NCBI GenBank assembly: GCA_035610835.1
Contig: CM069444.1
Span: 4,701,172 to 4,765,171, forward strand
Length of the DNA stretch: 64,000 nucleotides
Source: Ophiura sarsii
Taxonomy: Eukaryota > Echinodermata > Ophiuroidea > Amphilepidida > Ophiuridae
Direction of reading: 5' to 3'
The notes beneath the pieces were generated by a model. That model was given only the letters and a program-made list of their open reading frames with translations. It was not told where the DNA came from and did not search any database. This document shows positions 7,401 to 45,306 of this stretch, one piece after another. How positions within the stretch are numbered: the stretch's first letter is position 1; each line of letters opens with the position of its first letter. The translations under genes were made by a program, and so were the position numbers.

Positions 7401-7920
7401 ATGACCTGGAAAATTTATTCAGCAAAAAGAACACACCACTCCCCTTCCCTCCACCAAATCTCATCAATATAGGCCTTACTGATCTATTTGACCCCATATT
7501 TGACCCCGATGACCTTGAATGACCTCCGATGACCTTGAAAATTTTATCAGCAAAAAGAACACACCACCCCCTTCCCTCTACCAAATCCCATCAAGATCGG
7601 CCTTACGGATCTTATTTGACCCCATATTTGACCCCGATGACCTTGAATGACCTCCAATGACCTTGAAAATCTAATCAGCAAAAGAACACCCCACCCCCTT
7701 CCCTGACATCAAGTCCCATCAAGATAGGCCTTACGGATCTCTAGATATCGCGTCACAACGCGTCACAACGCGTCTCAAAAGTTTTAAGCATATTTGACCC
7801 CGATGACCTTGTATGACCCCCGATGACCTTGAAAAATCAATCAGCAACAGAACGCACCACCCCCCTTCCCTCCACCAAGTCCCATCACGATAGGCCTTAC
7901 GGATCTCCAGATATCGCGTC
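4470..7920. repeat. Satellite array, 109-bp period, about 31 copies
   Basis: Head-to-tail units. Successive CGATGACCCC starts at 5652 and 5761 give a 109-bp period. Each unit contains AAAAAGAACACACCA, then a C-rich tract, then AAATCCCATCAAGATAGGCC, then TTTGACCCCATATTTGACCC. Two unit types are interspersed: one with CCCCCTTCCCTCCACC and one with TCCCTCTTCCGTCCACC. Units at both edges are more diverged. Apparent ORFs on both strands (for example repeats of PILMGFGGGKGGGVFFLLIN) follow from the repeat and are not genes. Confidence 0.95.
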
Positions 7921-7937
7921 ACAAAGGTATTTCTTAG

Positions 7938-7998
7938 CACACGGCATACGGCGGACGGCGGACGGCATACGGCGGACGGCATACGGCGGACGCCGGAC
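7938..7998. repeat. GC-rich microsatellite (CGGCATACGGCGGA type)
   Basis: Tandem ACGGCGG and ACGGCAT heptamers immediately follow the degenerate end of the 109-bp satellite. They are far more GC-rich than the surroundings. Confidence 0.75.
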
Positions 7999-8587
7999 AG
8001 AAATAGTGATAACATAGTCTCTTTCTGATAACATCAGGCGAGACAAAAACCACCATGAAATTAGAAATAATCAAGCTTTTATAATTTCGCTCAATTAATA
8101 GTCTAGAACTTGGGCTTCGTCAAACTTAAAATGCGTTGCAAATTGGAAAGTTGTGATGGGACAGTTGGTAAAATTATACTAAAGTTGTATGCCAAAATAG
8201 ATACTGAATGCAGATACAATGTGGTATAAATATCCAAAGTTAATCTAGGAACCCTTTGTTTGACTAAGTATATATATATCTTAAATTGTTCTATAGGCAA
8301 CAAATACATATTAAAGTTGCTGTAAAAGCTTGATTATTCCCTTTTTTATAGCAGTAAGGAATTCAAAATTATATACATTTTCAGAGTCTAAAATGAAGCT
8401 GCGTTTCTTGCTTCGCAGACTCTGATAAGTTTTGTGTTTTATTTCTTGGGTTGAAAATAATATGCAATTTGGTGACAAAAAGTTCTGTTCGACCCTAGTG
8501 ACGCCAAAAAAATACAACTATTAATATGATGCTCAAATATTTTTGAATTATCTATTTTCTTATAAGATAATATAACTGATATGGGTG

Positions 8588-8903
8588 GTTCATTGTACTG
8601 ATCCAGTGACGGTACTCGCGTGTATGTAACACTTATGGTAGTGATGATCTTGACGACTCACGGCACTTTTTGCAGTCTTGGAGTTGACTGTTGATTTATC
8701 ATCTGTGGATTTTTTGGCAGATGATAAATGAGTATCGAATACGTGAGTGAATCCCTCTTATATATCTGTCTTGCTCCGTGCCAATAACCTTTGTCTTGTC
8801 TCATCCGATAACATGGTTAGAATCCACAACATGGTCCATTATAGCTGATTAGTCATATCTGAAACGTACACATGAGTACTTACACTGGATCAGTATAATG
8901 AAC
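8588..8903. mobile_element. MITE-like inverted repeat
   Basis: The left arm GTTCATTGTACTGATCCAGT pairs with the right arm ending ACTGGATCAGTATAATGAAC. A second small stem (TTTATCATCTG with CAGATGATAAA) lies inside. It sits about 150 bp downstream of the stop codon of the transposase-derived gene. Confidence 0.5.
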
Positions 8904-9056
8904 TTTCCATCAGATTACAATCAACGATCCTTATGAACTTATTTTGTTACGTTTTGAGCAACCATTGTTACATAATTTTATAACATCTTGTACCCAATTC
9001 ATTGATCTTATTCAATGTCATTGAACCCTCGACACCCATCAATAGCATTCCCATAT

Positions 9057-12000
9057 TTACACACTATATATTTCTTTGGCCTTCCTTTTCCTACTAGACT
9101 TCCTTGGCGACTCCTCATCATCAGACATGCCACTTTCATCAGCTGCTGTCTTTGAATGTTCTCCTGGACTATCAACTTCCTTTTCAGCATTCCTCCGTCT
9201 TGCTGACTTCCTTGGTGACTCAACATCAGATTGATCAAAAGATTTGCCAGTCTTTGAAGGTTCTCCTGGACTATCATCTAAAATTTCAACTTCCTTTTCA
9301 GCATTCCGCAGTCTTGTTGACTTCCTTATTAGTGACTCAACATCCGTTTGATCACCAGATTTGTCAGTCTTTGAATGTTCTCCTGGACTATCAGCTAAAA
9401 TTTCAATCTCCTTTTCGGCATTCCGCAGTCTTGTTGACTTCCTTAGTGACTCAATATCAGATTTGTCACCAGATTTGCCAGTCTTTGAAGGTTCTCCTGG
9501 ACTATCAATTAAAATATCAACTTCCTTATCAGCATTCCTTAGTCTTGTTGACTTTCTTAGTGACTCAACATCAGATTCATCACAAGATTTGCCAGTCTTT
9601 GAAGTTTCTCCTGGACTATCAACTAAAATTTCAACTCCCTTCTCAGCATTCCGCAGTCTTGTTGACTTTCTTAGTGACTCAACACCAGATTCATCACAAG
9701 ATTTGCCAGTCTTTGAAGGTTCTCCTGGACTATCAACTAAAATGTCAACTTCCTTTTCAGCATTCCTCAGTCTTGTTGACTTCCTTAGTGACTCAACATC
9801 AGATTCATTACAATATTTGCAAGTCTTTGAATGTTCTCCTGGACTATCAACTTCCTTCTCAGCATTCCTCAGTCTTGTTGACTTCCTTAGTGACACATGT
9901 ACATCAGATTCATCACAAGATTGGCCAGTCTCTGAAGGTTCCCATAGACTATCAGCTTCCTTTTGAGCATTCCTTCTCCGAGTAGACTTTCTAGAGAGCA
10001 ACTGGTAAACTGTAAGGCTATTGCTAACATCACCTTTCACAACAACAGCAGGATTCCTCTGAGGGGATTGATTATCTCTATGCACACTCTGAGGCGCAGA
10101 TTCTGATGGAGAGGATACAATATGTTGAAGTGAAAGCAAAGTTTCTGCTTCGCTCTGCAAAGAATTTACTGCGTTTTTGGTTCTACGCTTTCGTTTTCTG
10201 CCAGTGCTGCTTGTTTCAGTGGCTATGACCGTGTTGCTTTCAGGACTTGTCAAATCTGAGCTAGTTTCAGTGGACTCAAACACAATTGTGTCACTAGCAG
10301 GACTGTCTACAACAGACAAACTTGAAGCTCCAGCAGTACTAGACGGTGTTATTGCATCGCTAGCAGAACCGACAGGCTGACTCAACGTACTCGGGCCACT
10401 AGTTTGTGTGGATGTGACTGTGTTGGGGGGATAATTGATAACAATCGGCTGTGAACCTATGCTGCTTGCAGTGGATGTGACAGCATTGCTACCGATTACA
10501 ACGGGCAGATTTTGCCAAGGAACCATTAATGGAGATGACAAAGGAAGAAGCATTGGACTCATGCTAGGAGCGTTGGTCTGGAAAATACTAGATGGTAAAG
10601 TCGAAACTGGCTGATAGATGGTGGAGGTCATAGGCAGTAGTGGCATTTGGGGGACATTTACTGGCAACATGTTTTGTTCGATGACAACGGGATTTGTTTG
10701 TGTTCTTGGTTGTGCTTGTGCTTCACGTTCCTTTCTGACCCCTAACACTGTGTTCAGCACATCTAAATTGAATGCTTTGGATAGCTTGATAAGTTTGGCC
10801 TTTGTGACGGCATCAGTGTCTATGGTTGACACAAGGGCAACTTCTGCAGCATTATAGGATCTTCTTGCTGGTGGCCTATGCCTATACGCAGGATCCAGTC
10901 TCAAGTCTTTGCCGAATTTAGACATAAAGGCTGCATTCTTTTCAATCAAAGACTCGATACGACCCGAAACAGTTGCGGTTCCAGCCTCTGATGCACCTGT
11001 TGAAGACGTTTCTTGGAGCGTCTGAGAATTGACCATTGTCCCATGTGTTATCGTCGTCGGTGTTGCGGCATGAATGGACACGGGTATAGGCAATGGTTTT
11101 GCGGACGATGAAGACATTGAAGATACAGCAGGAGACAAAGACGATGAATTGATTTCCGAAGATGCTGTTGATGCTGCTTCAGATATGGACAAAGGTACAA
11201 TACCGTTGGAGCTTGTTGCATGACTTGATAAGTGACCAGATTCACTCTGCTCGGCAGTTGATGCACTTGCTGCATTATCTGACGAACCTGAAGCATTTTC
11301 CGAGGCTTCTGTTGCCTTCTTCAAATCCATTCCTGGTGAACCAACTATGGGTTCCGGCGAGTTACCAGACACGGCAACTCCAGACTGTGATACAGCGTTG
11401 ACCTTCTCGGCAGATTTCGTCCCACCCGTCGGATTTTTCGAAACAGCAGAAGCCAAATACATTCTTGGCATGGAGCTTTTAGTAGACACTGGCGGGGTTG
11501 AAGCTGATGAATTTGGAGTGGATTCTGATGACAACATTGATGATGTCTTTTGACTTTCCCTCATTTGAATTTCGATACCGTCTTCTATACTGGTCAGTCC
11601 TCGTAGCAGCCTTGAGCACGTTATGCAACTGCCAACAGTGAGAAAACGCCCAGCGGTTTCCACCACGTCATAAACACACTCGTTGCACTTCGGCCCAACA
11701 GGTGCTTTCAAACCTGTTTCTGGTGAACCAACTATGGGAATCTGTGAGTTATGAGACATGGCAACTTCAACTTGTGATACGGCGTTGACATTGACCTCCT
11801 CAGCCGTCCCACCTGTCGCAACAGCAGAAATCAAATTTGTTTCCTCATTGTGTAGAGATGTACAGTTAGTTGGGGATACATTTGGCGTGGAGCTTTTAGC
11901 AGATACTGGCGTGGGTGAAGCCGGGGATACTGATGACAATGTGGATGATGTGTCTTGACCTTCATCTTCTAAACTGGTCAGTCCTTGTAGCGGTCTTGTG

Positions 12001-12082
12001 CACGCTGTGCAACTGCCGACGATGCGAAAATGCCCATCGGTTTCCACCACATCATAAACACACTTATTGCACTGCGGTATAT
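9057..12082 (-). CDS. Exon 6 of the transposase-derived gene (residues 726-1733, stop TAA)
   Basis: The acceptor is CTTTCTCTGTCCAG; two bases complete codon Asp726. The exon opens with CNKCVYDVVETDG and TACT-type cysteines (C730, C733, C750, C753). A second copy follows about 128 residues later (C858, C861, C878, C881), with similar flanks, so a module of over 100 residues is duplicated. A long Ser/Thr-rich low-complexity linker encloses a helical segment (RIESLIEKNAAFMSKFGKDL onward). The last about 310 residues hold nine repeats beginning RKSTRLRNAEKE and rich in DSPGE and SKTGKS. They could be nuclear-localising or DNA-contacting, but that is inference. Confidence 0.88.
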
Positions 12083-15000
12083 CTGGACAGAGAAAGAAGT
12101 TAATATAAATTAGGTTTTAAATACAAGGTCATTTAATTTGTTACCACCGCCACTTATGGGCTGTAAACTCAGCCAATCCCCTGTCAACCCAATCTATTAT
12201 AGGTCCGGTCAACCCAATCCATTATAGGTCAAGTCAACCCAATCTATTATAGGTCCAGTCAACCCAATCTATTATAGGTCTGGTCAACCCAATCCATTAT
12301 AGGTCAAGTCAACCCAATCTATTATAGGTCCGGTCAACCCAATCTATTATAGGTCCGGTCAACCCAATCCATTATAGGTCAAGTCAACCCAATCTATTAT
12401 AGGTCCGGTCAACCCAATCTGTTATAGGTCCGGTCAACCCAATCCATTATAGGTCAAGTCAACCCAATCTATTATAGGTCCGGTCAACCCAATCTATTAT
12501 AGGTCCGGTCAACCCAATCCATTATAGGTCAAGTCAACCCAATCTATTATAGGTCCGGTCAACCCAATCTATTATAGGTCCGGTCAACCCAATCTATTAT
12601 AGTTCCGGTCAACCCAATCTGTTATAGGTCCGGTCAACCCAATCTATTATAGGTCTGGTCAACCCAATCCATTATAGGTCAAGTCAACCCAATCTATTAT
12701 AGGTCCGGTCAACCCAATCTATTATAGGTCCGGTCAACCCAATCTATTATAGGTCCGGTCAACCCAATCTGTTATAGGTCCGGTCAACCCAATCTATTAT
12801 AGGTCTGGTCAACCCAATCTATTATAGGTCCGGTCAACCCAATCTGTTATAGGTCCGGTCAACCCAATCTATTATAGGTCTGGTCAACCCAATCTATTAT
12901 AGGTCCGGTCAACCCAATCTATTATAGGTCCGGTCAACCCAATCTATTATAGGTCCGGTCAACCCAATCTATTATAGGTCCGGTCAACCCAATCTTAACA
13001 CTTCCAAAGAAGTAAGTTCCCCTTTAGGGTTTCCCTTATATTTTCAAAAATATACATTGGGTTGAAATGGGTTTTCTGTCAAATTGTTATGAGGTTCATA
13101 CCAATACTTGACTAAAATTTTAAATCAACAGGTTCTGCCGTGTTTGAGTGAGCTTGTATTGAATGACAGAATGTCCCATTTCAAATGTTGTTAAAATAAT
13201 GTTTAGTAGTGTGTGTATCCACCACGTTGGTGTATCAATTGACGACATCAATTTCTCATAGTGTTGTCTTTGATGGACGACAATGCGCGCCCACATAGAG
13301 GAAGAGTTGCTAATCAGTTCTTGGAAGATGAAGGTATAGAACGTTTGGTTTGGCCCGCGAACTCCCCAGATCTCAACCCAATCGAGCATCCGTGAGATCA
13401 GTTAAAGCGGCCGTGGATCGTAGAGTGGATGATCACACTAATCTTGCTAACTTACGTCTTCTGGTACAACAAGAGTGGGATGCCATCCCACAGCATCGAG
13501 TGGCGCGCCTCATCAACACTATGAGACGTCGATGTCGGCAAGTCATACAACAACGCGGTGGATACACCCGCTACTAAACATTATGTTAGCAACTTTTGAA
13601 ATTAAACGTTATTTTAGCAACTTTTGAAATGGGACATTCCGTCATTCAATACGTGCTCACTCGAGCATGACAGAACCTGTTGATTTGAAATTTTGGTCAA
13701 GTATTGGTATGAAGCCCATAATCATTTGACTGAAAATCCCATTTCATTCCAGTGTATTGTTTGGGAAATATGAGGGAACCCCTAAAGGGGAACTTACTTC
13801 TTTTGAAGTGTTTATTATAGGTCCAGTCAACCATTATAGGTCCAGTCACCCAATCTATTATAGGTCCGGTCAACCCAATCTATTATAGGTCCAGTCAACC
13901 CAATCTATTATAGTTCCAGTCAACCCAATCTATTATAGGTCCGGTCAACCCAATCTATTATAGTTCCGGTCAACCCAATCTATTATAGGTCCGGTCAACC
14001 CAATCTATTATAGGTCCGGTCAAGTCACTGGTTGGTCCAAATCAAGTCACGTAAACTCAGTGACTTTGTTCAGGTAAGGTCAAGTCACACCAAACTGATC
14101 ATTATAATTCATTTACTTCATAAATTGATATTGTCTGGCAAGCCATGTTCAGATTACTTTTCCAAGTGATGGATGGTATAGTCCAGATGCCCGCTTGGGT
14201 GTTTTTTTAATGCATTATGAGGTTTCCTAACATCTTATTTTATGATGCAGTTTAATGATTCTATCCATGTAAAGGTGTTTCAATTTGAGTGCCGGTCGGC
14301 CAGCGTGAGTGCCGGATACACCCTACTGGGGAAGCTACAACCCTGGTCACAAGTCAAGAGATTGCTCTCATTTTAATCGATATACATTTTGTATTGGTTG
14401 TACTTGTCACAGCATTATGATGTGGGGAGACAGAAATCAATAAATGTGTCCTTGTGCTACCATGAGCCTCAATACTGTCACGTGTCATTATAATAATCTG
14501 TGTATGTTTCAGGGAATTTCAGAATGTCTCCAAATTTATTGGGAAGACCAGCACAATGGATGCTGTGTCCGATCTTTTGGTTAACAATATTAATAACTCA
14601 ATATCATTGCCAAGTCAACAGGCTCACAGTATACTTTGTTACGAACCACTGATCACATAGATCATAACACAAACTACAAAGCCTGTGGCATATCAGAACT
14701 GATGTATATGGGCCCTTCAGGCTTGAACCAGTAACCTTGTGTTACTAACATGCACTAAACATCAACAAATAAGAATTAATATTTACCCTGTATTGGATTC
14801 TCCTTCTTTGCCCTATCCAGCAGGACAGCAGCTGCCATGGGAGTGGTGACAACTCCTTGCTCTGCCATAGGAGTGGTGACAACTCCTTGCTCTGTCATAG
14901 GAGTAGTGACAACTCCTTGCTCTGACATAGGAGTGGTGACAACTCCTTGCTCTGCCATAGGAGTGGTGACAACTCCTTGCTCTGCCATAGGAGTGGTGAC

Positions 15001-18000
15001 AACTCCTTGCTCTGCCATAGGAGTGGTGTCAACTACTTGCTCTGCCATAGGAGTGGTGTCATCTCCTTGCTCTGCCATAGAAGTGGTGACAACTTCTGGC
15101 TCGGCCATAGGAGTGGTGACAACTCCTTGCTTGGCCATAGGAGTGGTTTCAACTCCTTGCTCTGCCATACGAGTGGATTCAACTCCTTGCTCTGCCATAG
15201 GAGTGGTGACAACTTCTTGCTTTTCCTTCACATTCTTAATAGCTTTTTGCCAAGGTGTCATCTTCCATTTCTTTCCCCCACTCAATTTCCGATCAGATAC
15301 TGTCTCCGATTTGAGAAGATCTTCGATGACCGGGTTCAATGGGAAGACTCCTGTGTCTTTAAAGGCCTCCTGTATGGTCGCCATATCGAAAGCAGAACTG
15401 AAAATCTTGGTGAGTGTCACTGGAAAGAATGGTTCGACAACACGCCGATCTCTGTTGTCTCTGTTGAATTGGGCTTGCTGCTTAAGGTACTCTGTGTTTA
15501 AGGCGCTCAGCGGATGTAGTAATGGGTGCAACCACTTCAGCACCTGTCATGAAATGGAAATGAGATTGTACAACTGATCAAAAATTCGGAAATTGAATAC
15601 AATCTCAAAATTTTCGAATATCTTGGGTGTTCTTCATGCACCCTACTTAAACAACTTTGACGTATAAATTCAAGAAGGGTGCATGAACAACGCCAGGATT
15701 TAAACAGTGTTTTTACAGTGTAACTGTCAACGTGACACTTCATTGAACAGATGACAGAGTTGTTCTTTTGAGCATGTGGTACATTTTGCACATTTTGAAT
15801 GAGACCTCCCCACATTCTCAAGCAGGTTGCTTTTAAGCACTAAAACAAGTGATTGCTACAAATGAGGTATCATTGGAAATAGGAACAGATCCGCTTTTTA
15901 TTGATACTAGTGGCGTACCCTCGATACGCTCGGGACCCCGCTAGATGGTTATGCCACATTACCTACCTCTGAAACCACATAAACCCCCTACAACTGCGCC
16001 CTCCCCCACACACTACACCAACCAGGTTGGTTAATAATCATAACCCTCCTAAACCATTTACCATGGCTAATTTATTAACCCTCGGTCCCTTGGATTGTTT
16101 GGCATGCCAACTTAAAGTAAAGAAATCAGGTTGCTGTATTAACCACTACAAAAACCCTACTTGTACCACATTACTATAGGCATGCATAAAGTTCTGCTGC
16201 AGTGAGCACTTGCGCAAACATGCACACGAAACGTTACGCGTTATCAAATTATGGTTACGTCGTAGTACGCACAACGCACAATATCGTGCAATTCTAGTGG
16301 CATTTGTGAGCCAAATTCAAGTGGTGTTTTGCTGTTTTGGGAGCCAATTGTTAACCAATTTCACTGGAATATACTTTATCACACTTTATTTCCTCTATAT
16401 CTCATGCAAATTAGGCAACACTTTGATCAAAACTAACAGTGTACTAAGGATAACAAACAAACACACACCACTTCCATATTTATAGTAAGATACAAAACAC
16501 AATACGAATATAATCATGAAATATCCGAAAATTGTCAATTGAACACGACTACCCATTCTAGTGCAATGTTGTTGTCGTTAGTCATGATTATTAAAATCAT
16601 CATAACTTTAAAAGTATCCATTCAATTTGTATGAAGGAGGTATCAAACTACAAAAAAGAAATTTGCTCATTTAATGTACATTCAGATTTTTGGTATCGAT
16701 TATTGCTTTTGGATTAACCAACATCAAAGCGCCTGGTCAGGGACTTTTTGTGTTAGGTGTACATTGCAACCTCATTATTGCACCTGTTACCCCAGGCATT
16801 CTCAACTGGTGGCGCGCGCGCCACTTGTGGCGCATCAAGGCATCCTAAGTGGCGCATGGTTAAAAATTAAGTGGTTAAAATTTGTTTTAAAATCATATCA
16901 TGATATAGCCAGATTTCATAGGCCTATGACGATCAGATGTATAAATGCAGCAATTTTTCGCGCGCATGTGCCCTCAAAAGAGTAATATTAGTTATTATGC
17001 TGCCTACATGTTAAAATAGTTTGAAACTAATGTTATAAAGGGAATTTTGCCATTGTAAATTCTAACAAAATATTTTTAAGTGGAGCTTCAACAAGTTGGT
17101 TACTAAATTGTGGCGCATCAGTTAATCTAGTTGAGAAAGCCTGTGTTACCCTGTAGGGGTCACACCACTAAATAGGGCTCCATAGGGATATGTACAAAAA
17201 CATTGATATAAAACTCTGTTTTAGACCAATAAATTGCAAAATTGGACCCTGTAGAGTGATTTTCTTCTTAAAGATGATCACATTTTCTCACCAAAAAGTG
17301 AAGAAAATAGGTAGGTGAGCCTGCTCGATTTTCCAAAATACGCCCATGGAGTGACTACCTCTCTGACGGGCTTGAAAATGTCGCCGTAATCGCCAATGTT
17401 TCCAGTAAAAAGCACAAATTTGAAAGACCTCTCAAAATTTATCTAGATGATATTCACAGTTTATTAGTCAGGGTGCATGTAGGTGATGTCCCATTAATCA
17501 CAATTAATCAAAAATCATAGGAATTTACGCAATTGTATTACTGTCAATTCTTTTTAATTGAGGATTTTGCCATGCATATTTTCCCGATTCTAGTTTTAAA
17601 CACCGCCCTTACGGGTAGGGGATACCCCATTTAGTGCAGTGCACCCTGCATAGACCTAATCATACCTTGTCATTGATCAGCACTAATTGCACACACTGCT
17701 CTTCTGCGACTGCTAAGAGTTTTGGAGACAAAAGCTTATTGTTGCCAGGCAGTATCAGAACAATTGGGTCCTCAGCGGTGCGCACAGGCAGATAATGGAG
17801 GAAAATAGTGTGAAACCATTGAACCTGGTTGAAAACAAAAGAGAGATAGTCATGATAGTTATTTTGTTTAAGGTAGAAATTAACTGAGCTCTAGAATGAA
17901 TGAGGTATCAAACCACGGAGCTATGTCAGGAGCTGCTTAACTTTCAAGCAGTTTACTTACTAGCTTAAAGGTATCAGGGTGAGTCAAAAAGACTGCAATA

Positions 18001-21000
18001 GTGGAAAGAAGCCATTTTGTTTTCAAAACCAAAATGAATTTTAAAACTTTTTAAACGTTGCAAGAATGATGTATTTAATCCTAACTTTGTGTGAAAAAAT
18101 GAAGTCGATCGCATTTTTTGTTTGTCTTTGGTGAACCTTTTGACCAGTGCACCAATTTCACACGTTTGTCCACGAGATACCCAAAATATGCATCAGATCG
18201 CAAAATGTGTCTCTCATTCAAATTTGGAAACTTAAGTTCATTTGTGATGTTATTGGAATTTGATGCATCCTTTCTTGTTTACATGTAAGTTAGCATAATC
18301 AATTATAATCATACCCATGCTATGAAAGCGTATAATGTTCTAAATTTTAATAAAAAACTGACATTTTCCATTTTTTTGTTGGCGGGTTATTCAAATATGA
18401 AAATGTGATCGACTTCATTTGTTCACACAAAGTTAGGATTAAATACATCATTCTTGCAACGTTTAAAGAAATTCATTTTGGTTTTGAAAACAAAATGGCT
18501 TCTTTCCACTATTGCAGTCTTTTTGACTCACCCTGTATGTTCCTATCACTTTTTGGGGCTATGAATTTTTTTTCACATCAAGATATTTTGGTAATCAGAA
18601 GAATCCCCATATTTTTCTCATTATGTCTGTAAAATATTAGGGGCCAGAAATGTTCCATTTGGAAATTATAGGCGAAAATGTGGTGAATTACTGCCAAAGA
18701 TGGTTAACCACCTATCAATGGGCACATGTCTTTTGACCTTGTGCTCAAAAAATAGAATCATTGGAGTTATGCAACTCAAACTTTGGAATGCAATAATTTT
18801 AAGGATGACCTTTCATGTAAAATAGAAAACATCAAGTTAAAAATTGGGTCAGTAATCGGAACATCTACCTTTAACATAATTAATAAGTAATACAATTTGT
18901 TCATTACTTATTCAAATTTTAAACATGATGGATTACTAAACTGCTTCGTATAGAAATAGCCACAGGGCGTGTTTTGGGAATAAAACTATCAAGGAGAAAC
19001 ATGTGTCAAATTTGGGCAAAAAATTGACACCCCCTGCTCCCTGCGTGGCAGCCCGCCACTATCTAACTAAGCTAAGGAGGCAAGCTTGCAAAAACTCTTG
19101 GCAGCCACGGATAGACTGGGGAACCATACGCTACCAGCACGTACCAGCGTAGTATTTTGTAGCATGTAGTTTCGTTAAGAGATAATATAGAAAGATGCTA
19201 AAAAGGAGTATAATATGCGGTTTGGGGGTTTTAGCACCGGAAGCTAAAATGTACCGCAATTTCAGTCCCACAATGCAATGGGCGTAGCATGTAGTAAAGC
19301 CCGTGAATTAACAGTGGGCCCCTAACCATTGTAATGCAGATGTTCATTGCATTATGGGATTGAAATGTTTGTTGCTACATTGCGGCTAAACCCTGAGACT
19401 GTGTATAAGCACATGTCTGCTGATACTGACTTCTTCATGTTAAGAAATTCTCATGGTCGCGGTTGTTGAATTTGCCGTACTCACTCCCGATATTTAACTG
19501 GAGTGAAACTCAGCATGGAGTGTGTCTGGGGTGCTGGGAAATATGTCTTTTATAAACTGTTTTTGACCTGATACATTGAATTTTATTCTCGACACAGCTG
19601 TAGAACATTATTATTATTGGTAATATTTTGAACAAAGAAGCTTTTTATAACGAGCAAGTTTGCAATAAAGTGTGATTTTGTTTACTTCACCCATCACGGT
19701 AAAGCAATTTTTCACTCCAGGGAGTAACTTGGAGCAGCCGTAATTGCCCGTAATTGACCAATCAGGTGCCAGTATTCCATTCTGTGCCATCATTGCGACC
19801 GTGAGAATAAGGGGGTTTAATTCATTTTTGTTATTTATATGGGGGTAGCATGCCTCTTGACATCACTAGATCATGTACAAAATATCAGTGCAAGCCCTAG
19901 CATCTGTGTTTCATTATCTGTGTACAAAACCTTGAAATCTCCATCTTACCAAAATGTCAGCGTTAACCTTCCCACCGTGTGACTTGACGAATCCAGCCTC
20001 TGGCAAACCCAAGAATTCGGGAATATTCTCCCCAAAGTCATCGTCATCATACACGACACACGGCGGTAAGATCTGATACCCAGTTGCATTTGCTGCAAAG
20101 ATGATCTCAGTGGATAGGTAACGTACAATCTCCAGCTCATCATCGGGGGCAGTCTGCTTTTCCCATCTGGCAATGTCAAGGGGCGCCGGCTGGCATGCGT
20201 AGACTCTCGATGGTTTCGTGTGAAAGTTATGCGCCTCAAACAACTCCGTCAACCGATCAAAGTACAGCTTGGCCCGGTTGTGATGTACAACTATCTTTGT
20301 GCTTTGTGCCCTTGTTAAACCGATGTCCTTGATTTCTGGGTGATACTTGCGAAACAAAAGCCACCAGTTCTCCGGCTGTTGTAATGTCTCCCCTCGGTTT
20401 GCTAGACACTGTGATAATTAGAAAGAAAAAACAACATAAAATAACAATGGTTTTAAAGTTTATTTCTTATTTATAATTAGGCCAAAAAAAAAAAAAAATT
20501 TGGTTGCCCTTTCACCTCAATTTTTTTGGGGGGTCGGTGGGTCGATTTTTTAAAATAAAAAAAAATTAAATTTCTTTTTAAATATCAAAGAATGCCAAAA
20601 ATACACTTTTAAGTGAATTAGATATGATTTTATTTCGAAATATAAGTGTTTTTACAAATGTAAAATGGAAGATGAAAAGGATTTTACATGATTTTTGCAT
20701 GCATTACCAATCTTTTCTTTCACAAACGATTCACACTCAGACAAATCAGATATCTATAGCTATCTATAAACTTGATGTTGTGCATATATGGTGTTTTATT
20801 AAAATTCTTAGAAACGTTCATGCACAATAGAATAGAAACACACCAAGGTGATCGAGCAAAACATGTGAGGTGAAATGTTATGTTTACGATTGTCGTGTAC
20901 CTGCTTGTTTAGCATCAGCCTACACTGCAAATTATGAGCTTTTACTTTTGGACAAACTAAAAGTAAACTCAAAAGTAAACGCAATTCTAAACACAAAACT

Positions 21001-24000
21001 AAACGTAAAAGTAAACGCAAAACTAAACGTTTCTTGCATTTTGCACCCAATTGACCTGAAAGCACGCTCCAAGTGAGTGAATATAATCACAGATGTTTCC
21101 ACCATCTGTGATATAATGGGACAGTTATTGATTAGAGTCTGGGTGGAAAACAGCTTAGTTGTTTGGCTCACAAAGTGTTTAGTATTGCGTTTACTTTTGA
21201 GTTTACTTTTAGTTTGTCCAAAAGTAAACACTCATAATTTGCAGTGCTAGAAGCTCCTAGAGAGGAATAAAATATGTATGGCCTAAGAATATGTGTCTGC
21301 AATACATTTTAAATGAACAGCAACCGTATTTCACCATCTCGTAAGCATTATTCATGAAATTGCCTTTTTTCTTTTCTTTTTTTTTTCTTCTTTTTTTTGA
21401 AACAAAAAACAAAACAAAAAACGCGACCAGATGCAGTAATTTTTGTTTATTTTTGAAATCGAGTTTAAAAAATTATAACTGCTGTTATGCATGTTATGTT
21501 GACGGGTATGTTGAATAGCATTTAAAACCTATTGAGTATTTGTTATTTTATCCATCATTCATAAATGAAACATCTAGAGAAGAGAAAAAAAATACAAACA
21601 TTTAGTTACAAATCTTTAGAGTGTTACCGTATATCATTTTACAGGCAACACGTCTATTGCACAAATAATTAACAAAATGTAATGAATTTAGATGTTTTTT
21701 TGTTTCTCTGGCAAGTATAGGCCTAGTGCAAAATCTGTTTAGGAGTGTCCCCGACACAGTCAGTTGGTCACTTTCGACTTGTCAGCCATCTTGCAAAAAA
21801 ATAGCAAAAAATTGGAAAATAGTAAATAGTAAGACCCTCCCTCCTCCTTTTTTAAAAAAGTCCGGACGGGAAACATGTTATTTATTTTACTATGCCTAAT
21901 AATATCACATTATTTTGTTCTTTTTGCCCGACCCTCACCTCTGTGACAAGCGGCAATACGCAGTACATCGTGATGACGTGCTTGACCCGATTCAACGCCA
22001 GGATGTAGTGCACAACTTCCCTTTCCTCTTCGTACGTCAGTTTCCTCTTTGCCAACCATTGATTCATCTTTTTCTTCACCTTTCCTTCAAGATTGTTCTT
22101 AAGAGCAAGCCTTGGGACCTTGAAATAAAGGGTTTCAATAGAAATACAAGTCAACAAGGACATATGAAATGTTAAAGGTATGACCCGATCACATTTTCAT
22201 ATAACACAGATTTTTCTCAAACATATGGAGATTTTCATATCATATGAAAGATCATATTTTTCTGATTAACATACTGAAATTTGACGGTCCAAATCAGTAT
22301 GATTACGAAGAAATCGGTGAAATAACATCGAATTACCGCGAAAGGTAGTTAACCACCAATTAGTTTGTGTACAACTAAATGGGCACATTTCACGGCATCT
22401 TGTGCGCCTAAAATAAGAACCATTAGAGTTATGCAACTCAAACTTTGGAATACAACTCTTTTTAAGGATGACCTTTCATGTAGAATAGAAAACTTCCAAG
22501 TTGAAAATCGGAACATTTACCTTTAAGAAAGCCATGAATTACAAGACAATCCTTTAAGTTGCCTTTCTACTACATGTAAATCATTAGCATACTTTCAGTG
22601 TTGACTCAACTTTGGAGGTGACGTCAGCACCAAATCTAGTGATGGGCGATTCCATGGAAATGTGACGGAACAAAAAACTGACAATTGCTCCAAAAGATTT
22701 ATTTTTACCTTCAATCATGTTGTTCAAAGCCCATGCAAAGGTTCAGGAAAAAATTGTTACCATATTGGCTAGGCTATTGTTTACTATAAAAAATGTACTT
22801 TTCTTACTTTCAAAATGGTAACACGTGTTACCGGAGAAACACTTTTTTGAAAATATTTCCCAATTGATTTGGTTCCAATTGATGTCACTTATAATTTTAA
22901 TCCTACTACTAGTTAGGGTCCTATTTAAAAATAGTAAACAATTAGATAAATTAATAACCACCATTCCAAAATAAGCCATCAACATTTTGTATCGCGTGTT
23001 ACCAAACTCATATTCAGGAGAACGTGCTAAAACCTTAATTTTTTAAGTATTATTTATCACTATCTATGGTTAATATGTTAGTTCACAGACAAAATTAATT
23101 TTAATTTAGAAATTAAATAAAGAATCGAATGCTAGTAAATTATGGCTGGATAAAGTGTAACGCGAGTTACTGTAACATGTGTTACCGACTATAATTTAGC
23201 AATTTACAAAAAAAGTGGGCACGTGGTGCACAGGGTGCGGTGAACGGGGTGAGCGCGCAACTCGCGTACCATGTCTGGATACGCCCCTGGACTTGTCATC
23301 AGCACAAAATAGTGATAATATTGGCACATTCAGATTGAGACCTCCCTATATTTTCAAGCTGAGCATTGAAACAAATTTAGTATCATTGAAAAGATAAACA
23401 CGTCAGCTATCCATTGATGTGAATCACATTTTATGAACATATTATCGAAATATACAAATGATCAATTACTGCATTTCCTAAGGGGTTTACATACCTTGAA
23501 GACCTTTCTGGCCGCATTGATAGAGTACAGCCCCTGTCTAACAGCATCAGCAGCTGCCTGTATTTCAGCATCAGTGCACTTTAACGGACGAGGCACACTC
23601 TTAAAGACAGACTTTCTCTTCATCTTACCCATCAATGGTTTGGTTGCACTGTCGTTGGGCTGGGAGTCTCCGGGTGCATCATTTCCACAGGGTGCTTTCT
23701 CATCAGATGCTTTATCAGAGAGCTCCATTCCAGGGGCCTCAATTGGCACTGTATCATTGGCATCATTGCCACCAATGGGCTCTTCAACAGGAGTTATTAT
23801 ATCTGTTGCTCTATCCTCTTCCGCCTTTTGGGCGGCGAGATAATCGGGAGCATTCTTTCCCCAGTATGTACTCAACTCTCCTGTAACCCTCAGTGCATTT
23901 GCGCGCGCCATCATTCTCTTTATCGGTACATCTGCTATTTGCGCCGCTCTCGACATGAAGACACCCTGGCGTATGAGTTCTAGCCCCCTCTGGATGTTCT

Positions 24001-24115
24001 CCTCGGGAACGTACAATTGGATCTTTCTCACTTTGCCTCTTGTGGTGATAGGGGGCTGTGGTGCAGTTGGTTCAATGAAATTGGGACTGTAAGTTTTCAA
24101 TTTTGGCAATGACAT
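9057..24115 (-). CDS. Pogo/Tigger-type transposase-derived protein, catalytically dead (six coding exons, 1,733 aa)
   Basis: Six exons (24115-23495, 22118-21939, 20408-19950, 17824-17666, 15543-14787, 12082-9057) join with consensus GT-AG sites. The first four introns are phase 0 and the fifth is phase 1, and the lengths sum to 5,202 nt. Domains in order: Psq-like HTH (about residues 40-79), second Psq HTH (183-220, split by intron 1), CENP-B/Tigger-type HTH ending WWLLFRKYHPEI (about 236-293), and a DDE fold (about 335-545, including AFKDTGVFPLNP). Then come thirteen VVTTPMAEQG-type repeats (584-710), two CX2C-X16-CX2C modules (730-753, 858-881), a Ser/Thr-rich linker, a helical segment (about 1099-1181) and nine basic repeats to the end. 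The usual catalytic Asp positions are Q340, P446 and S486. An intact reading frame with a dead triad suggests a domesticated DNA-binding protein rather than a mobile transposase. The architecture is seen directly; function and nuclear location are inferred. Confidence 0.85.
9060..9990 (-). repeat. Coding minisatellite (nine RKSTRLRNAEKE repeats)
   Basis: A roughly 110-bp unit is repeated in frame within exon 6. Units vary by loss of a short segment (with or without the ILVD stretch), always in multiples of three. Antisense ORFs across this tract are shadows. Confidence 0.9.
12185..12998. repeat. 25-bp satellite array (left part), in intron 5
   Basis: Tandem units of CTATTATAGGTCCGGTCAAC plus CCAAT. 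In the first half (to about 12,560) three variants recur in a fixed order, giving a 75-bp higher-order unit: one monomer with CCATTATAGG, one with GGTCAAGTC, one standard. The second half is less ordered. About 33 copies. It lies in the last intron of the transposase-derived gene. Confidence 0.95.
12999..13810. mobile_element. Tc1-like element inserted in the 25-bp satellite
   Basis: The ends are inverted repeats, CACTTCCAAAGAAGTAAGTT at the left and the complement of CACTTCAAAAGAAGTAAGTT at the right, with similarity running about 200 bp inward. The same 25-bp satellite lies on both sides, so the element interrupted a pre-existing array. The internal transposase remnant is broken, so the element could move only with help in trans. 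Confidence 0.85.
13265..13576 (+). pseudogene. Tc1/mariner transposase C-terminal fragment
   Basis: The translation shows DDNARPHRGRVANQFLEDEG and then SPDLNPIEHP, the diagnostic D-N-A-x-x-H and S-P-D-L-N-P-I-E blocks of Tc1-family transposases. A TGA sits where the family has Trp after the SPDLNPIEH block, and a one-base loss shifts frame a few codons later. The 75-codon ORF at 13,350-13,577 is the tail after the shift. The N-terminal DNA-binding half is missing. Confidence 0.9.
13811..14028. repeat. 25-bp satellite array (right part)
   Basis: About nine more units of the array at 12,185-12,998, partly degenerate at the junction with the inserted element. Confidence 0.9.
14196..14346. repeat. 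Partial copy of the CAGGGTTCTAGC hAT-like MITE (3' part)
   Basis: Matches the inner and right part of the complete element at 57,784-58,105, through the GAGTGCCGG repeats. Its right end (CTACAACCCTGG) is diverged. Confidence 0.55.
14787..15543 (-). CDS. Exon 5 of the transposase-derived gene (residues 474-725)
   Basis: The acceptor is CATTTCATGACAG. The donor GTAAAT leaves one base (phase 1). The third catalytic block, normally Q-P-L-D, reads HPLS (Ser486). The DDE region closes with AFKDTGVFPLNP, a recognisable end for this transposase class. After a Lys-rich linker come thirteen tandem copies of a 10-residue unit, VVTTPMAEQG, encoded by a 30-bp minisatellite at about 14,830-15,210. Several units differ by one or two residues. 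Confidence 0.88.
16793..17143. mobile_element. hAT-like MITE with 8-bp TSD, in intron 4
   Basis: The termini are CAGGCATTCTCAACTGG and CTAGTTGAGAAAGCCTG. TGTTACCC is duplicated directly outside both ends (16785-16792 and 17144-17151). TIRs of the C-A-G-x-x-x-T-T-C-T-C-A-A-C type with 8-bp TSDs are hAT hallmarks. The interior carries several TGGCGC motifs and has no ORF of note. Confidence 0.88.
17666..17824 (-). CDS. Exon 4 of the transposase-derived gene (residues 421-473)
   Basis: A 53-codon exon recovered by reading between the longer ORFs. The acceptor is TTGTTTTCAACCAG and the donor is GTATGA, both phase 0. It encodes VQWFHTIFLHYLPV and then VLILPGNNKLLSPKLLAVA. This aligns with the family block in which a hydrophobic strand ends in L-D-G-H. 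Here that Asp is Pro at residue 446 and the His is Asn. Confidence 0.87.
17975..18535. mobile_element. TIR element, CAGGGTGAGTCAAAAAGAC ends, in intron 3
   Basis: The arms are about 140 bp, nearly identical and inverted (CAGGGTGAGTCAAAAAGACT at the left, the complement at the right). TA lies adjacent to both ends. It shares its terminal 13 bp with the element at 47,009-47,642, so both may use one Tc1/mariner-type source. Confidence 0.82.
18545..18870. repeat. Diverged copy of the TTAA-flanked MITE family
   Basis: Shares long stretches (such as GTTATGCAACTCAAACTTTGG and GGATGACCTTTCATGT) with the elements at 22,176-22,522 and 55,233-55,589. The right end ACATCTACCT is followed by TTAA. The left end is lost near the adjoining element. 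Confidence 0.7.
19219..19392. repeat. Imperfect inverted repeat in intron 3
   Basis: TTTTAGCACCGGAAGC onward pairs with a stretch ending GCGGCTAAACCC, including matched CCCACAATGCAATG and CATTGCATTATGGG blocks. Probably an old MITE. Confidence 0.4.
19950..20408 (-). CDS. Exon 3 of the transposase-derived gene (residues 268-420)
   Basis: The acceptor is TTCTAATTATCACAG and the donor is GTAAGA; the exon is 153 codons. It contains NWWLLFRKYHPEI (end of the CENP-B-type HTH) and then the start of the DDE fold. Where active pogo/Tigger enzymes have the VDETG block, this protein reads SRVYACQPAPLD, so the first catalytic Asp is Gln at residue 340. The later block FAANATGYQILPPCVVYDDD corresponds to the family's A-x-A-x-G-x-x-L-P-P strand. 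Confidence 0.88.
20923..21246. mobile_element. MITE, CACTGCAAATTATGAG ends, in intron 2
   Basis: Inverted arms start CACTGCAAATTATGAG, continue as TTTACTTTTGGACAAACTAA and run for about 60 bp. CTA lies outside both ends (3-bp TSD, compatible with but not proof of a PIF/Harbinger origin). AAAGTAAACGCAA motifs recur inside. The ORFs on both strands reflect these repeats. Confidence 0.75.
21716..21897 (-). repeat. Dispersed repeat of about 180 bp, short copy, in intron 2
   Basis: The reverse complement matches 29,028-29,195 over its length, including ACATGTTTCCCGTCCGGA, GGAGGAGGG, TTACTATTTACTATTTTCC and CAAGTCGAAAGTGACCAACT. Confidence 0.75.
21939..22118 (-). CDS. Exon 2 of the transposase-derived gene (residues 208-267)
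   Basis: The acceptor is TTTATTTCAAG and the donor is GTGAGG; the exon is 60 codons, phase 0 at both ends. It opens VPRLALKNNLEGK, which completes the Psq motif begun in exon 1, so the splice join is supported by homology as well as by signals. The following segment LTYEEEREVVHYILALNRV matches the start of the CENP-B/Tigger second HTH region. Confidence 0.88.
22176..22522. mobile_element. TTAA-flanked MITE, in intron 1
   Basis: TTAA lies outside each end (22172-22175 and 22523-22526), as for piggyBac-type insertions. The body is about 85 percent similar by eye to the element at 55,233-55,589. The left end reads AGGTATGACCCGATCACATT; the right end is eroded. Confidence 0.78.
22642..23217 (-). 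repeat. Truncated copy of the GGTAACACGTGTTACC element, in intron 1
   Basis: Begins ATGGGCGATTCCATGG and runs in reverse orientation to the complete element at 27,010-27,920, breaking off in its middle. It keeps one perfect GGTAACACGTGTTACC palindrome at 22,817-22,832 and degenerate ones near 22,995 and 23,158-23,185. Confidence 0.75.
23495..24115 (-). CDS. Exon 1 of the transposase-derived gene (residues 1-207)
   Basis: The ATG at 24115 is chosen because an in-frame TGA lies 18 nt upstream. A pyrimidine-rich stretch ending CCTAG, just upstream of 24151, could be the acceptor of a 5' UTR exon. Residues 40-79 (GLELIRQGVFMSRAAQIADV and following) resemble a Psq helix-turn-helix. Residues 183-207 (AADAVRQGLYSINAARKVFK) begin a second one. 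An acidic, Pro-rich spacer lies between. The exon ends AAG with donor GTATGT, in phase 0. Confidence 0.85.
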
Positions 24116-24151
24116 CTTCGTAGATTTTGATCATTGCAACAACCCTGCCAC
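24116..24151 (-). other. Possible 5' UTR segment of the transposase-derived gene
   Basis: A CCTTTCCTAG acceptor-like site would start an exon at 24151, leading into the ATG at 24115. The upstream non-coding exon and promoter were not identified. Confidence 0.35.
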
Positions 24152-24420
24152 CTAGGAAAGGAGGACAAATATATTAATGAATGCAATTACTTATATTCAA
24201 TGACTGCCTGATTAATTTCATGACTTAAAGCATAGATTATCAAGAAAAATATGGACAAGCGGTATTTTCTTTCGAAGCTATGTGGGTGTCAGACCAAGGT
24301 GGCTCAAGTTTTATCGCCTTTGGCCTTGTCATGAAATAACTTCTCAACATCCATAAAAAATAAAACACCACTCTCGTTCCATTCACATTTCGTCCCCGTA
24401 TGGGGCGCAAGAGAAAAATC

Positions 24421-24480
24421 AGGGGGGGGGGGGGGGGGGGGGAGGCAAGATGAAAATGGTGGGAGTGGGGGGGGGGGCAT
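24421..24480. repeat. Poly-G tracts
   Basis: A run of over 20 G is followed by GGGAGTGGGGGGGGGG. Proline-rich ORFs here on the minus strand are artefacts of the tract. Confidence 0.85.
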
Positions 24481-24831
24481 AATGGGCTGGAAGTGTGCAA
24501 AAATGTTGAGTTTTATTGTAAAAATTGCCTGACATTTGTTTTGAATTAACTTTTCTAACCAATTTAATGCTATAAATATAAATAATGTTGACATTATAAC
24601 TATACATTTTCGATTGTTTGTGCGAAAAAAAATATGGTGGGGCGTGAGCCGAGTGGGGCCAAGGGGTGAAAAGGCCATGACTGGGCACCACTGACAGGGC
24701 GTCTCAAAAAATTACAACACACCTTTAACTGTAACTTCCTAAATAAGTATCGGAATAGAACAATTCAAACGACAAAATAACATCAAATTAGTTGGCTATA
24801 ATTTGAAGATAAACATGCTTGATTTGGCAAT

Positions 24832-26700
24832 ATCCTCAAATAGTTCTTATATGGGTATGTCCATGAAGTTGGGCCAAAAAGTGTGACATGAGGTCAAAAT
24901 TTCAAAATTGTTCAATTGTTAATCTGATATTATTTTTAGGTCCGACAATATCCATACTTTTGAAAAATAGTGAACTTTTTCCTCTCAAGTATGAAAATAA
25001 TCATTGATTGCAGGTCAGTTTCAGGTTATTACATGGTAAAAATACCTATATGCTACATGGACACCATTCTGACACTTCTCCCTTGCATTATTTTTAAATA
25101 GTTCAGGTTACTCACCATTCTTATATAGATTTATATTGCACTTTCATGGTCAGATTCATAAAAGCACACAATTGATACTACTCTACATCACAAAAAGTGA
25201 TATGATGCTTTGCAAATTGAGGGTTGCGGGGTAATTTGGTTCAAGCCTTTTTGATGTAGTATTTATGTCTGTAATCAATAAGGATTGCTTCTGACACACA
25301 TATTTTGTATAATTTTATCATCACTGATAACTGTTTAACTGATTTAGTAACATTACAATTAAATAAAAAGTAAAAGCTTCTGTCCATACAGCTAAACATA
25401 CAAGAAATTTACCTGATGCTACATGGACACCATGTCCTGTAGCATAGGTATAAATTCTATTGTTTTACAGATAACTAACATAAAACGAAGTAAGACACAT
25501 TTCACTTCCTCTTTATATCAATAGCCACTACAATTACTACTAAAAATAAGAGTGATGTATAGAATTTTTTTAATTTGATACCCAATATCTACATGTACTT
25601 GATTACCGGCACTACATGGACACAGTGTCCATGTAGCATCAGGTACATTGTTTTGGTAAAAATGGTATCAAATATTGTGAGTTATCTCACTAAAAACTGT
25701 CATGTTATGTTATTTCCCATATATTTTCAAGTAGAATTGAAATATTTGAAAAAGAATTATGGGTGCCATCATTATAAACTAATTACCTTGTCCCTAAGCT
25801 ACATGGTAATACCGGCACTACAGGTGGACACCTCGCTTGTTTTCAGTTTTTTTGCTGTCTTTAATAAAACCAATTACCCCAAAACTGGTCCCAATGAGAA
25901 CCTCTAGTAAAACACTTAATTGCAGGGAGCCATTCATTTCAGTATGTGAAAGGATCTTTTTACTTGAGAGGGGCAATCATTGTAAATATACCTATGCTAC
26001 ACCGGACACCTCGTCAAAAATCAGTGACGTTTCCTCAAATAATTTTAAAATAACATCATCTACATGTATGGGTACAGTTGTTGTTCAAACTTTCTTATGA
26101 ATGTGATACGGTAATTTAGGACCCAAAATCAGTGGGTTCAATTGTCATCTGTGTTGTTGGTGAGCTTAAAATACCGATGCTACATGCTTTTTTTGGTGGA
26201 CTCCTTTCTGTAGCATAGGTATGGCAATTTCCCGAAGACGTCATATCAAATTGGCCGATTTCTGTTCTGTCATAATCTACTTAAAGGTGAATTGGAACAT
26301 ATATTCATAGATTATGTAGTAATTTTATGATTTTATGACATTTATATTTACAAAATTATGTTTTGCATTTTTTCTATTTTCATGTCACACTTTTTTGACT
26401 AAAAAAGGGCCGGACACCAACTATTAATGAAGCATAAAAAAAATTACAGGGGAGCTATAACTTTCATTTGACTTTTAAAAGACATGTTCGTATGAGGTCT
26501 TTCTAAATTATATTACTTGTGAAAATAAACTTCAGGCAAACTGTCAGAAAATGCATTTATCCTACACAAATCAGCACAATTTCTTAAATTGCCCAACTTC
26601 ATGGACATACCCATATACGGATTAAAGCATAAGGCAGCTATCAGTTTTACAATGTAAAACAACTGCAAAGCAATTGCTGCCTTGTGCTTTATAATATTTT
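24832..26700. mobile_element. Hairpin MITE interrupted by a larger insertion
   Basis: The outer parts (GCAATATCCTCAAATAG at the left; GGATTAAAGCATAAGGCAGC and GCAATTGCTGCCTTGTGCTT at the right) match the complete 133-bp hairpin at 31,115-31,247. They are separated by the 1.77-kb element at 24,852-26,614. Confidence 0.7.
24852..26614. mobile_element. TIR element with an internal GCTACATGGACACC array
   Basis: The termini TGGGTATGTCCATGAAGTTG and its complement pair. TA (or ATAT) is duplicated at the junctions with the hairpin MITE. Inside, variants of ACCTATGCTACATGGACACC occur near 25,044, 25,411, 25,606, 25,810, 25,990 and 26,173, several as head-to-head palindromes. The ends share a GTCCATG core with the internal motif. 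No transposase ORF. Confidence 0.7.
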
Positions 26701-31681: not shown

Positions 31682-32340
31682 ATATTTATTTATTTATTTA
31701 TTTGAACATACACTTTTACAACAGTGGCACCCGTCTACCCGACGGTGCGTTCATAATATATACATACAATAATTGACAAAAACGAGAGAACATTAAAAAT
31801 TATTATATAGTCATGTATACAATAGTCTCAATAGATTCACTTTGAGTTCATAATATTACATCTAACAGCCCACGCACGTTTAAGGTATGATTTGCAGAAT
31901 TGGTCAAGGATAGCGTATGCAGAACGGGCAGCTTTAGTGTGTCTGTAAGGCGTGGTGATATTAATTGGACAACCTAGCATTATATACAATTTTGAGTCCA
32001 GATTACTGATAATAAATTCCAGCCAAACATCACTAAAACCATCGTTGCATAGGTTATTTTCGAGTTTGATATATTCCTCGACCCTTATCTCATTCAGTGA
32101 TCTACATGTAAATAAGAAATGTCTTAAGTCTTCCATTGAATCATCATTACAAAGCATACATTTACCATCCTTATTATTTGAAGACCATTTGCGTATTCTA
32201 TGTTCCAATGGAAGCGTGTTTGATCGCGCTTTGAATTTTAGACTACAACCAAAGAAATCAGTTTTGTCTAAAAGATAGTCTTCCAATTGAACGGTTTTTT
32301 TAAACTGCAAATAGTCACTAATTAGTAATATCGAGTTAGG
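31682..32340 (-). mobile_element. 3' remnant of a non-LTR retrotransposon
   Basis: Minus-strand sequence ending in a short (AAAT)n tail at 31,682-31,703, preceded by a 3' UTR and the C-terminal end of an ORF2-like protein. It is 5' truncated, as is usual for non-LTR insertions. Confidence 0.75.
31837..32310 (-). pseudogene. Non-LTR retrotransposon ORF2 C-terminal fragment
   Basis: 157 codons open at the 3' end of the element. CMLCNDDSMEDLRHFLFTC matches the C-x2-C...H...C zinc-knuckle-like motif found after the reverse transcriptase domain of several non-LTR clades. No reverse transcriptase or endonuclease domain remains here. The clade cannot be fixed from this fragment. Confidence 0.75.
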
Positions 32341-32921
32341 TTTAGACTTGAATAGGAATGAGAATTTGTATTAGACCATCAATTGTTTGCAGTTTATAAC
32401 GGAAAATCATCATTTACAGAGAGAATTTTATCAGAAAAATCTAGCATAAGGCCAAGTCAAATTTAAAAAAAACATGATTCTCGTTTGGGTTATTTATTTA
32501 TTTTTAATTTTATTTTTACACAGCGTTTTAGTCTGGTTAATAAATATTCGCGTATCGAATTAAATTATCTAATAACGAACTCAAATTGGTTATAAAACTA
32601 GTTCCTGATATTTGAAAAAAATCCCGTATATTTCATTAGACAATAAATATTCTAAGTGAAATAATGCAGTGGACGAACAACGGCGAGTCCAGCCTAGACT
32701 GTATCCGTCGCCCCCTGACCATCGGCCTCATTATCTTTTGCGCATGCGTCCGTGCGCCATGTTAGGAGACAGAAGGATAAAGTCTAAGTCCAGCCCTCGT
32801 TTGAAATGACGTCATGCATTAACACCGACGGCGACACTCATCGATTGGTAATCGATAGCATCGATATAGCTTTAATAATACTATGATTGATGCTAGGTTG
32901 AAGTGGAAGTTTAACGACAGC

Positions 32922-33831: not shown

Positions 33832-33934
33832 TGGCCAGATAAAGCATTTTGAATCGACGTTTTGTAGTACAAAGAGGGCTGATTTTTCTTAATCCTTTCT
33901 TAGAGGGCTGATTTTTCTTATTCTTAATCCTGTC

Positions 33935-45204: not shown

Positions 45205-45306
45205 ATTTCACAGAGGGTGAACTTGAAGTTGCTTAGATAAATATCTCTAGATTTCTACAACAAAGTTGTCTAAAATGATCAGAGGACGATGTCTCATTTT
45301 TCACTC

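Follow-up and report, generated by a model that had tools for sequence, protein, structure and literature searches.

Can a gene laid out like a pogo transposase, with none of the three acidic residues of the catalytic triad, still be a mobile element, or has it become a gene of its host? The question is raised by a locus of the brittle star Ophiura sarsii on the minus strand of chromosome 4 (4,710,228-4,725,286), where six joined exons encode 1,733 amino acids and a stop between positions 24115 and 9057 of the window, by which we mean the whole stretch of 64,000 nucleotides that was analysed (Table 1). We propose that a pogo-superfamily transposase was probably exapted here as a host gene, in an ancestor that Ophiura and Amphiura shared, and that the product of this gene would bind specific DNA sequences or chromatin in the nucleus without cutting DNA.

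The reading frame itself is real. Rebuilding the gene confirmed the preliminary description, in which six exons with consensus splice sites and matching phases were joined into an uninterrupted 1,733 residues; each of the five introns is GT-AG, with cumulative phases of 0, 0, 0, 0 and 1. The frame of exon 6 extends over 1,019 codons from stop to stop, against a maximum of 200 in 500 Markov-1 simulations of the region, and the remaining same-strand frames (two per exon) carry 2 to 101 stops each. An alignment with P0001, one of two relatives from the brittle star Amphiura filiformis, runs without a gap over the four exon junctions that P0001 covers, so these four joins are supported independently. 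The join of exons 5 and 6 is backed by phase, splice signals and a 32-residue motif common to the other Amphiura record, P0002.

Table 1. Features of the O. sarsii gene, with positions in the window.
Feature	Position	Strand	Content or basis
Exon 1	24115-23495	minus	Residues 1-207: Psq-like HTH 1 and start of Psq HTH 2 (176-222)
Psq-like HTH 1 (exon 1)	24037-23831	minus	Residues ~27-95; type assigned via the Amphiura relative
Exon 2	22118-21939	minus	Residues 208-267: Psq HTH 2 ends and CENP-B-type HTH region begins
Exon 3	20408-19950	minus	Residues 268-420: HTH region ends and DDE fold begins; Gln340 at the D1 position
Gln340 codon, place of catalytic Asp 1 (Amphiura: Glu)	20190-20192	minus	Alignments
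Exon 4	17824-17666	minus	Residues 421-473: DDE fold; D2 position is Pro446
Pro446 codon, place of catalytic Asp 2 (Amphiura: His)	17747-17749	minus	Alignments
Exon 5	15543-14787	minus	Residues 474-725: end of DDE fold, helices to ~556, then coding minisatellite
Leu482 codon, at or next to place of catalytic Asp 3 (Amphiura: Gln or gap)	15517-15519	minus	Alignment-dependent
Coding minisatellite (exon 5)	14832-15221	minus	30 bp x 13, EQGVVTTPMA units
Exon 6	12082-9057	minus	Residues 726-1733: zinc-knuckle-like repeat, S/T/P-rich middle, Amphiura-shared motif, basic repeat tail, stop
CxxC-x16-CxxC module 1	12000-12071	minus	Cys730-Cys753
CxxC-x16-CxxC module 2	11616-11687	minus	Cys858-Cys881; internal duplicate of module 1
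Motif AKLIKLSKAFNLDVLNTVLGVRKEREAQAQPR	10704-10799	minus	Residues 1154-1185; common to Amphiura P0002 788-819
RKSTRxRNAEKE repeat array and basic C-terminus	9060-9992	minus	Nine RKS[TAS]R units from residue 1423

Intron 5 contains a 25-bp satellite (12183-12995 and 13833-14023) on either side of an imperfect palindrome of ~0.8 kb (12997-13812), and a satellite array with periods of 109, 128, 327 and others occupies 4477-7998, ~1 kb past the 3' end of the gene. Elsewhere in the window, an open frame of 863 codons on the minus strand (42619-45207) matches DDE_Tnp_1_7 (E 1.2e-63), which we take to be the domain of a piggyBac-type transposase; TTAGCACTT-rich inverted repeats, among the 25 longest of 78 pairs, flank this frame on both sides. 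Matches to zf-RVT / RVT_1 at 31840-32370 (minus) and 33928-34356 (plus), below curated cut-offs, are likely remnants of non-LTR retrotransposons.

The core of the gene descends from the pogo family. Residues 175-556 align with five pogo copies of the same genome at 25-26% identity (E about 1e-13 in a genome search), and blastp against the transposase of a live-looking pogo element gave an E of 7e-20, bearing out the earlier claim of colinear homology over the HTH and DDE regions. Pfam models recognised this ancestry at or below their cut-offs. DDE_1 scored 18.7 bits on the whole protein and 22.0 on a 415-residue piece (cut-off 22), and HTH_psq scored 12.8 and 12.2 bits, on the second block only (cut-off 20.4); the first Psq-like block scanned alone had no Pfam match, and the CENP-B-type HTH went unrecognised by Pfam. 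A whole-protein Pfam scan up to E 1 returned only DDE_1, HTH_psq and Extensin_1; the last fell mainly on the exon 5 minisatellite and was taken for composition. A PDB sequence search with the gene found no match up to E 1, and our statements on its fold are drawn from sequence alignment.

The Amphiura relative clarified the N-terminal layout. HTH_psq reached 33.4 bits over two stretches of whole P0001 (cut-off 20.4), and the two pieces scanned separately scored 20.0 (N-terminal) and 19.3 bits (second), just below that cut-off. On the strength of this relative and of the alignment, we tentatively assign two Psq-type HTHs to the family, one more than in the live-looking copy scanned. The additional, N-terminal domain appears to be new here. 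It is among the best-conserved parts of the gene, and only 24 of its positions, 6 of them identical, could be aligned with the live-looking transposase.

For comparison with an intact relative, the same genome carries a live-looking pogo element of 7.4 kb, whose TIRs agree at all of the first 20 bases and at 28 of the first 30. Its inverted repeat reads GGGTGAAATCGGC... (L012, L014 and L013), and TA stands on both sides of the two copies read to both ends (L012 2088-9499 and L014 1716-9099). Three copies, two on contig C1 and one on C14, are 99.4-99.9% identical over long aligned stretches. The transposase frame is open for 902-903 codons in 4 of the 6 copies first fetched and for about 895 and 779 in the others; the part scanned contains one Psq HTH, HTH_Tnp_Tc5 and DDE_1, with DD35D intact.

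Mapping of the catalytic Asp positions was done twice, first with a family consensus and then with actual pogo transposases of the genome. The in-genome frames read D/D/D in 9 of 9 aligned cases (L022-L027 and L029-L031, two families with many near-identical copies, in a genome with 39 DDE_1 places); two further aligned rows were left uncounted, L028, whose frame shows no transposase alignment, and L004, which belongs to a different family (K, D, E). The gene lacks the DDxD triad of a functional pogo-superfamily transposon, with Q340, P446 and, at the third site, either Leu482 (family consensus) or a gap (in-genome transposases). Asp is thus absent from all three catalytic blocks, as originally claimed; the third site, however, corresponds to the first HPL (in W-L-H-P-L-L) and not to the second, 'HPLS', where it had been placed. 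Both A. filiformis records are also without all three Asp, reading Glu, His, and Gln or a gap, and the first catalytic site there is still acidic. The replacements differ between the species (Q/E, P/H and L/Q for gene/Amphiura in the family-consensus alignment). Because all three Asp are replaced in both species, the capacity for DNA cutting has most likely been lost.

Three other frames of the O. sarsii genome were noted. L004 (C12:24453988-24454497), a 441-aa DDE_1 frame with the best score of the 39 in the genome (143.6 bits), carries Lys where D1 would stand and Glu in place of D3, and is possibly another exapted pogo-type gene. L005 (C6:39669263-39669784), a DDE_1 frame of 320 aa, is possibly inactive too, its second acidic block reading LLIYNTPLH where an Asp would be expected. 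A 1,220-aa frame, L028 (C19:17940764-17941153), matches gene residues 168-295 at 28%, had no DDE alignment within the 654 residues examined and may be another host protein with a Psq/HTH region.

Evidence for a host gene also comes from outside Ophiura. Two relatives were found in the protein database, both from A. filiformis: P0001, 37% identical over 486 aligned columns, and P0002, 45% identical over 247. The forward match had an E of 9.5e-93 (600-residue query, at least 8,000 candidates scored, 2 matches); a region query recovered the identical two matches with 976 candidates scored, and the full-length protein gave no match at E 0.01 among 7,154 candidates. No relative outside Amphiura was seen among the matches listed, in a search that relies on shared exact words and may miss distant orthologues. 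A search of viral contigs for a genuine pogo transposase found no relative, the frames at the three loci whose matches were examined being unrelated or too short. A back-search of O. sarsii with P0001 listed 11 places, of which the top three fell within the gene locus and pogo elements came next; because the gene locus comes first in this back-search, the relation is reciprocal best. An orthologue search, which had been proposed as a check, has thus yielded a relative that is itself without the three Asp. P0001 and P0002, 98.3% identical across 172 residues, are placed on different contigs and may therefore be either alleles or copies.

Conservation between the two species is uneven. Compared with P0001, Psq-like block 1 is identical at 38/68 positions and the D1-D2 stretch at 69/125, against 15/48 for the second Psq region, 25/82 for the CENP-B-type HTH region and 14/45 for the part from D2 onward (446-490); the N-terminal Psq-like block and the DDE scaffold between D1 and D2 are thus the best-conserved parts. 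Of the DNA-binding regions that the initial view held to survive, the CENP-B-type HTH is weakly kept and has no Pfam match. In a tree of the aligned core, the gene and the two Amphiura records grouped together on long branches with a support of 1.000, and L004 joined them at 0.955. Both O. sarsii and A. filiformis belong to Amphilepidida in the NCBI taxonomy, in different infraorders; ophiuroid diversification as a whole is dated to 170-350 Ma in PMC11959729.

The C-terminal half is rich in repeats. Module 1, as a 49-residue piece, matched Pfam zf-POGZ at E 0.1 only, below the zf-POGZ cut-off, and S, T, P and Q make up 42% of residues 900-1350 in the middle of exon 6. The internal repeats give a weak sign of constraint, with pN/pS ratios from about 0.6 to about 1.0: values were 0.174/0.292 for the exon 6 array, 0.146/0.195 for the Cys modules, 0.248/0.293 for the whole duplicated module and 0.110/0.106 for the exon 5 array, the last indicating no constraint. 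The live-looking pogo transposases of O. sarsii have a similar-looking long S/T/P-rich C-terminus, also with basic clusters, although a comparison of the two C-termini found no sequence homology (best E 2.2).

Might the locus nevertheless be a pogo copy or fossil, its catalytic residues lost by drift and its open frame a remnant? The setting would suit such a history, for transposons are many in the window and the genome, and live-looking pogo copies persist in the same genome. A degenerate inverted pair also brackets the gene: when flank 8000-9056 was compared with flank 24116-26500, the best inverted match covered 45 nt and was 71% complementary (8166-8210 / 25276-25320), with a score of 19 that 1 of 60 simulations reached, a borderline result. 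We did not take this pair for a TIR because it has no perfect stretch of 12 nt or more. Those flanks hold no perfect inverted pair of at least 12 nt and none of at least 10 nt with TA outside, the 13-base TIR start of the live-looking element is absent from the window, and 14 of the 25 longest inverted pairs (of 53) fall inside one intron; clear TIRs, whose absence the preliminary description had proposed as a check, are lacking from the two flanks. Nor did the many near-identical copies that it had named as a refutation turn up. A search with the core (residues 1-583; 15 places, 20 candidates scored) gave five close matches at 86-99%, all of them exons of the gene locus, and ten remaining places that were 23-28% identical and mostly pogo elements, headed by the live-looking ones; a further close core copy was thus not seen in O. 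sarsii. An open frame of 1,733 codons is not expected of a decaying copy, and the Amphiura relative, with the same losses and a D1-D2 stretch kept at 69/125, largely contradicts drift; we regard a fossil as highly improbable. A different objection is that two adjacent genes were misjoined, the pogo-derived part ending in exon 5 and exon 6 forming a separate gene. The exon 5/6 junction does lie outside the well-conserved region, with exon 6 2.7 kb away across a satellite array. By plain BLOSUM scoring the shared motif AKLIKLSKAFNLDVLNTVLGVRKEREAQAQPR was not significant, since 32 of 200 shuffles did as well, whereas composition-adjusted blastp against P0002 gave an E of 2e-4 and none of 60 shuffles did as well by the corrected score. 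The P0002 model itself unites a DDE part with a long S/T/P-rich C-terminus that includes this motif, the phase-1 donor and acceptor fit, and exon 6 offers no Met before residue 834, more than 100 residues in. A misjoined pair is therefore unlikely.

A host gene made from transposon parts is the reading that we prefer, because the triad is lost, the parts form one six-exon gene and a brittle-star relative is altered in a matching way; the exaptation proposed at the outset gains from that relative, from the lack of a second close core copy and from the absence of a clear TIR. We infer that the gene is expressed and that its product is most likely a non-catalytic, nuclear protein that binds specific DNA sequences or chromatin. 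Contact with DNA would fall to the tandem Psq-type HTHs, perhaps helped by the degenerate CENP-B-type HTH; the dead DDE fold may have been kept as a scaffold for protein interactions; and the long C-terminus, with its duplicated Cys modules, S/T/P-rich linker and basic repeats, could bind partners or lend non-specific affinity for DNA or chromatin. A host protein of this kind might instead repress or compete with live pogo elements and not regulate host genes. It shares its fold and one Psq-type HTH with in-genome pogo elements whose copies are at least 99.4% identical, and a dead DDE fold beside kept DNA-binding parts is what one might expect of a competitor. Identity to the live-looking elements is only ~25%, however, which makes shared TIR recognition doubtful, and we consider such a role improbable. 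More speculatively, and with rather low probability in our estimation, the gene could encode a brittle-star CENP-B-like protein, a dead pogo derivative with two Psq-type domains that would bind repeated DNA (satellite or old pogo ends) in heterochromatin or centromeres, its self-repeating basic tail co-evolving with that DNA.

As a host gene, the locus would add brittle stars to the lineages in which a pogo transposase has been turned to host use. Because live-looking elements and the altered gene share one genome, recruitment, intron gain, the second Psq-type domain and the loss of catalysis could be traced step by step across ophiuroids. Expression tests are practical, since brittle stars serve as models of regeneration and Amphiura filiformis, Ophiura sarsii and Ophiura sarsii vadicola have published genomes at chromosome level (PMC11310086, PMC11139871, PMC11959729).

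Domestication of pogo transposases is recurrent, with twelve vertebrate genes listed in PMC7386202, and the gene is filed under this known kind for that reason. A likeness to CENP-B-like and JRK/TIGD genes had been suggested. It holds for CENPB, TIGD3, TIGD4 and TIGD5, which like our gene are pogo-derived, with a DNA-binding HTH, a DDE_1 fold and a triad described as unrecognisable (PMC7386202); JRK fits poorly, since according to the same source the triad is intact in both JRK and JRKL. The four vertebrate proteins combine CENP-B_N with HTH_Tnp_Tc5 in about 470-670 aa (PMC7386202), whereas the brittle-star gene has Psq-type HTHs, five introns and 1,733 aa, and a relative was seen in one other brittle star only. 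The Passer-derived POGZ and POGK resemble the gene as pogo-derived genes with extra domains, POGZ being long and equipped with zinc fingers; POGZ, however, is reported there to keep DD35D and to have its zinc fingers at the N-terminus (PMC7386202), whereas the brittle-star gene has lost the triad and carries its Cys modules on the C-terminal side of the DDE fold.

A wider survey counts 788 transposon-derived transcription factors across Metazoa (PMC10027918), among them CENPB- and HTH-Psq-type factors that separate lineages recruited from pogo, as we propose for this gene. The words 'echinoderm' and 'brittle' do not occur in the main text of that survey, and its available passages do not describe the brittle-star family; the available text of PMC7325037 names Echinodermata once, for one pogo clade, and no title on this brittle-star gene stood among the matches listed from the open-licence literature. 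Closest at hand for comparison is the live-looking pogo element of O. sarsii (L006-L011, L022-L026), which has in common with the gene a Psq HTH, an HTH region, a DDE_1 fold, a long S/T/P-rich C-terminus and a basic tail. That element is a single-frame transposon with one Psq domain in the copy scanned, DD35D, TIRs with TA and copies at least 99.4% identical, whereas the gene combines five introns with two Psq-type blocks, lacks the triad and a clear TIR, and was found in one copy of the core. The gene, seen only in brittle stars, thus joins the known kind of recurrent pogo domestication, and its double-Psq layout is distinctive.
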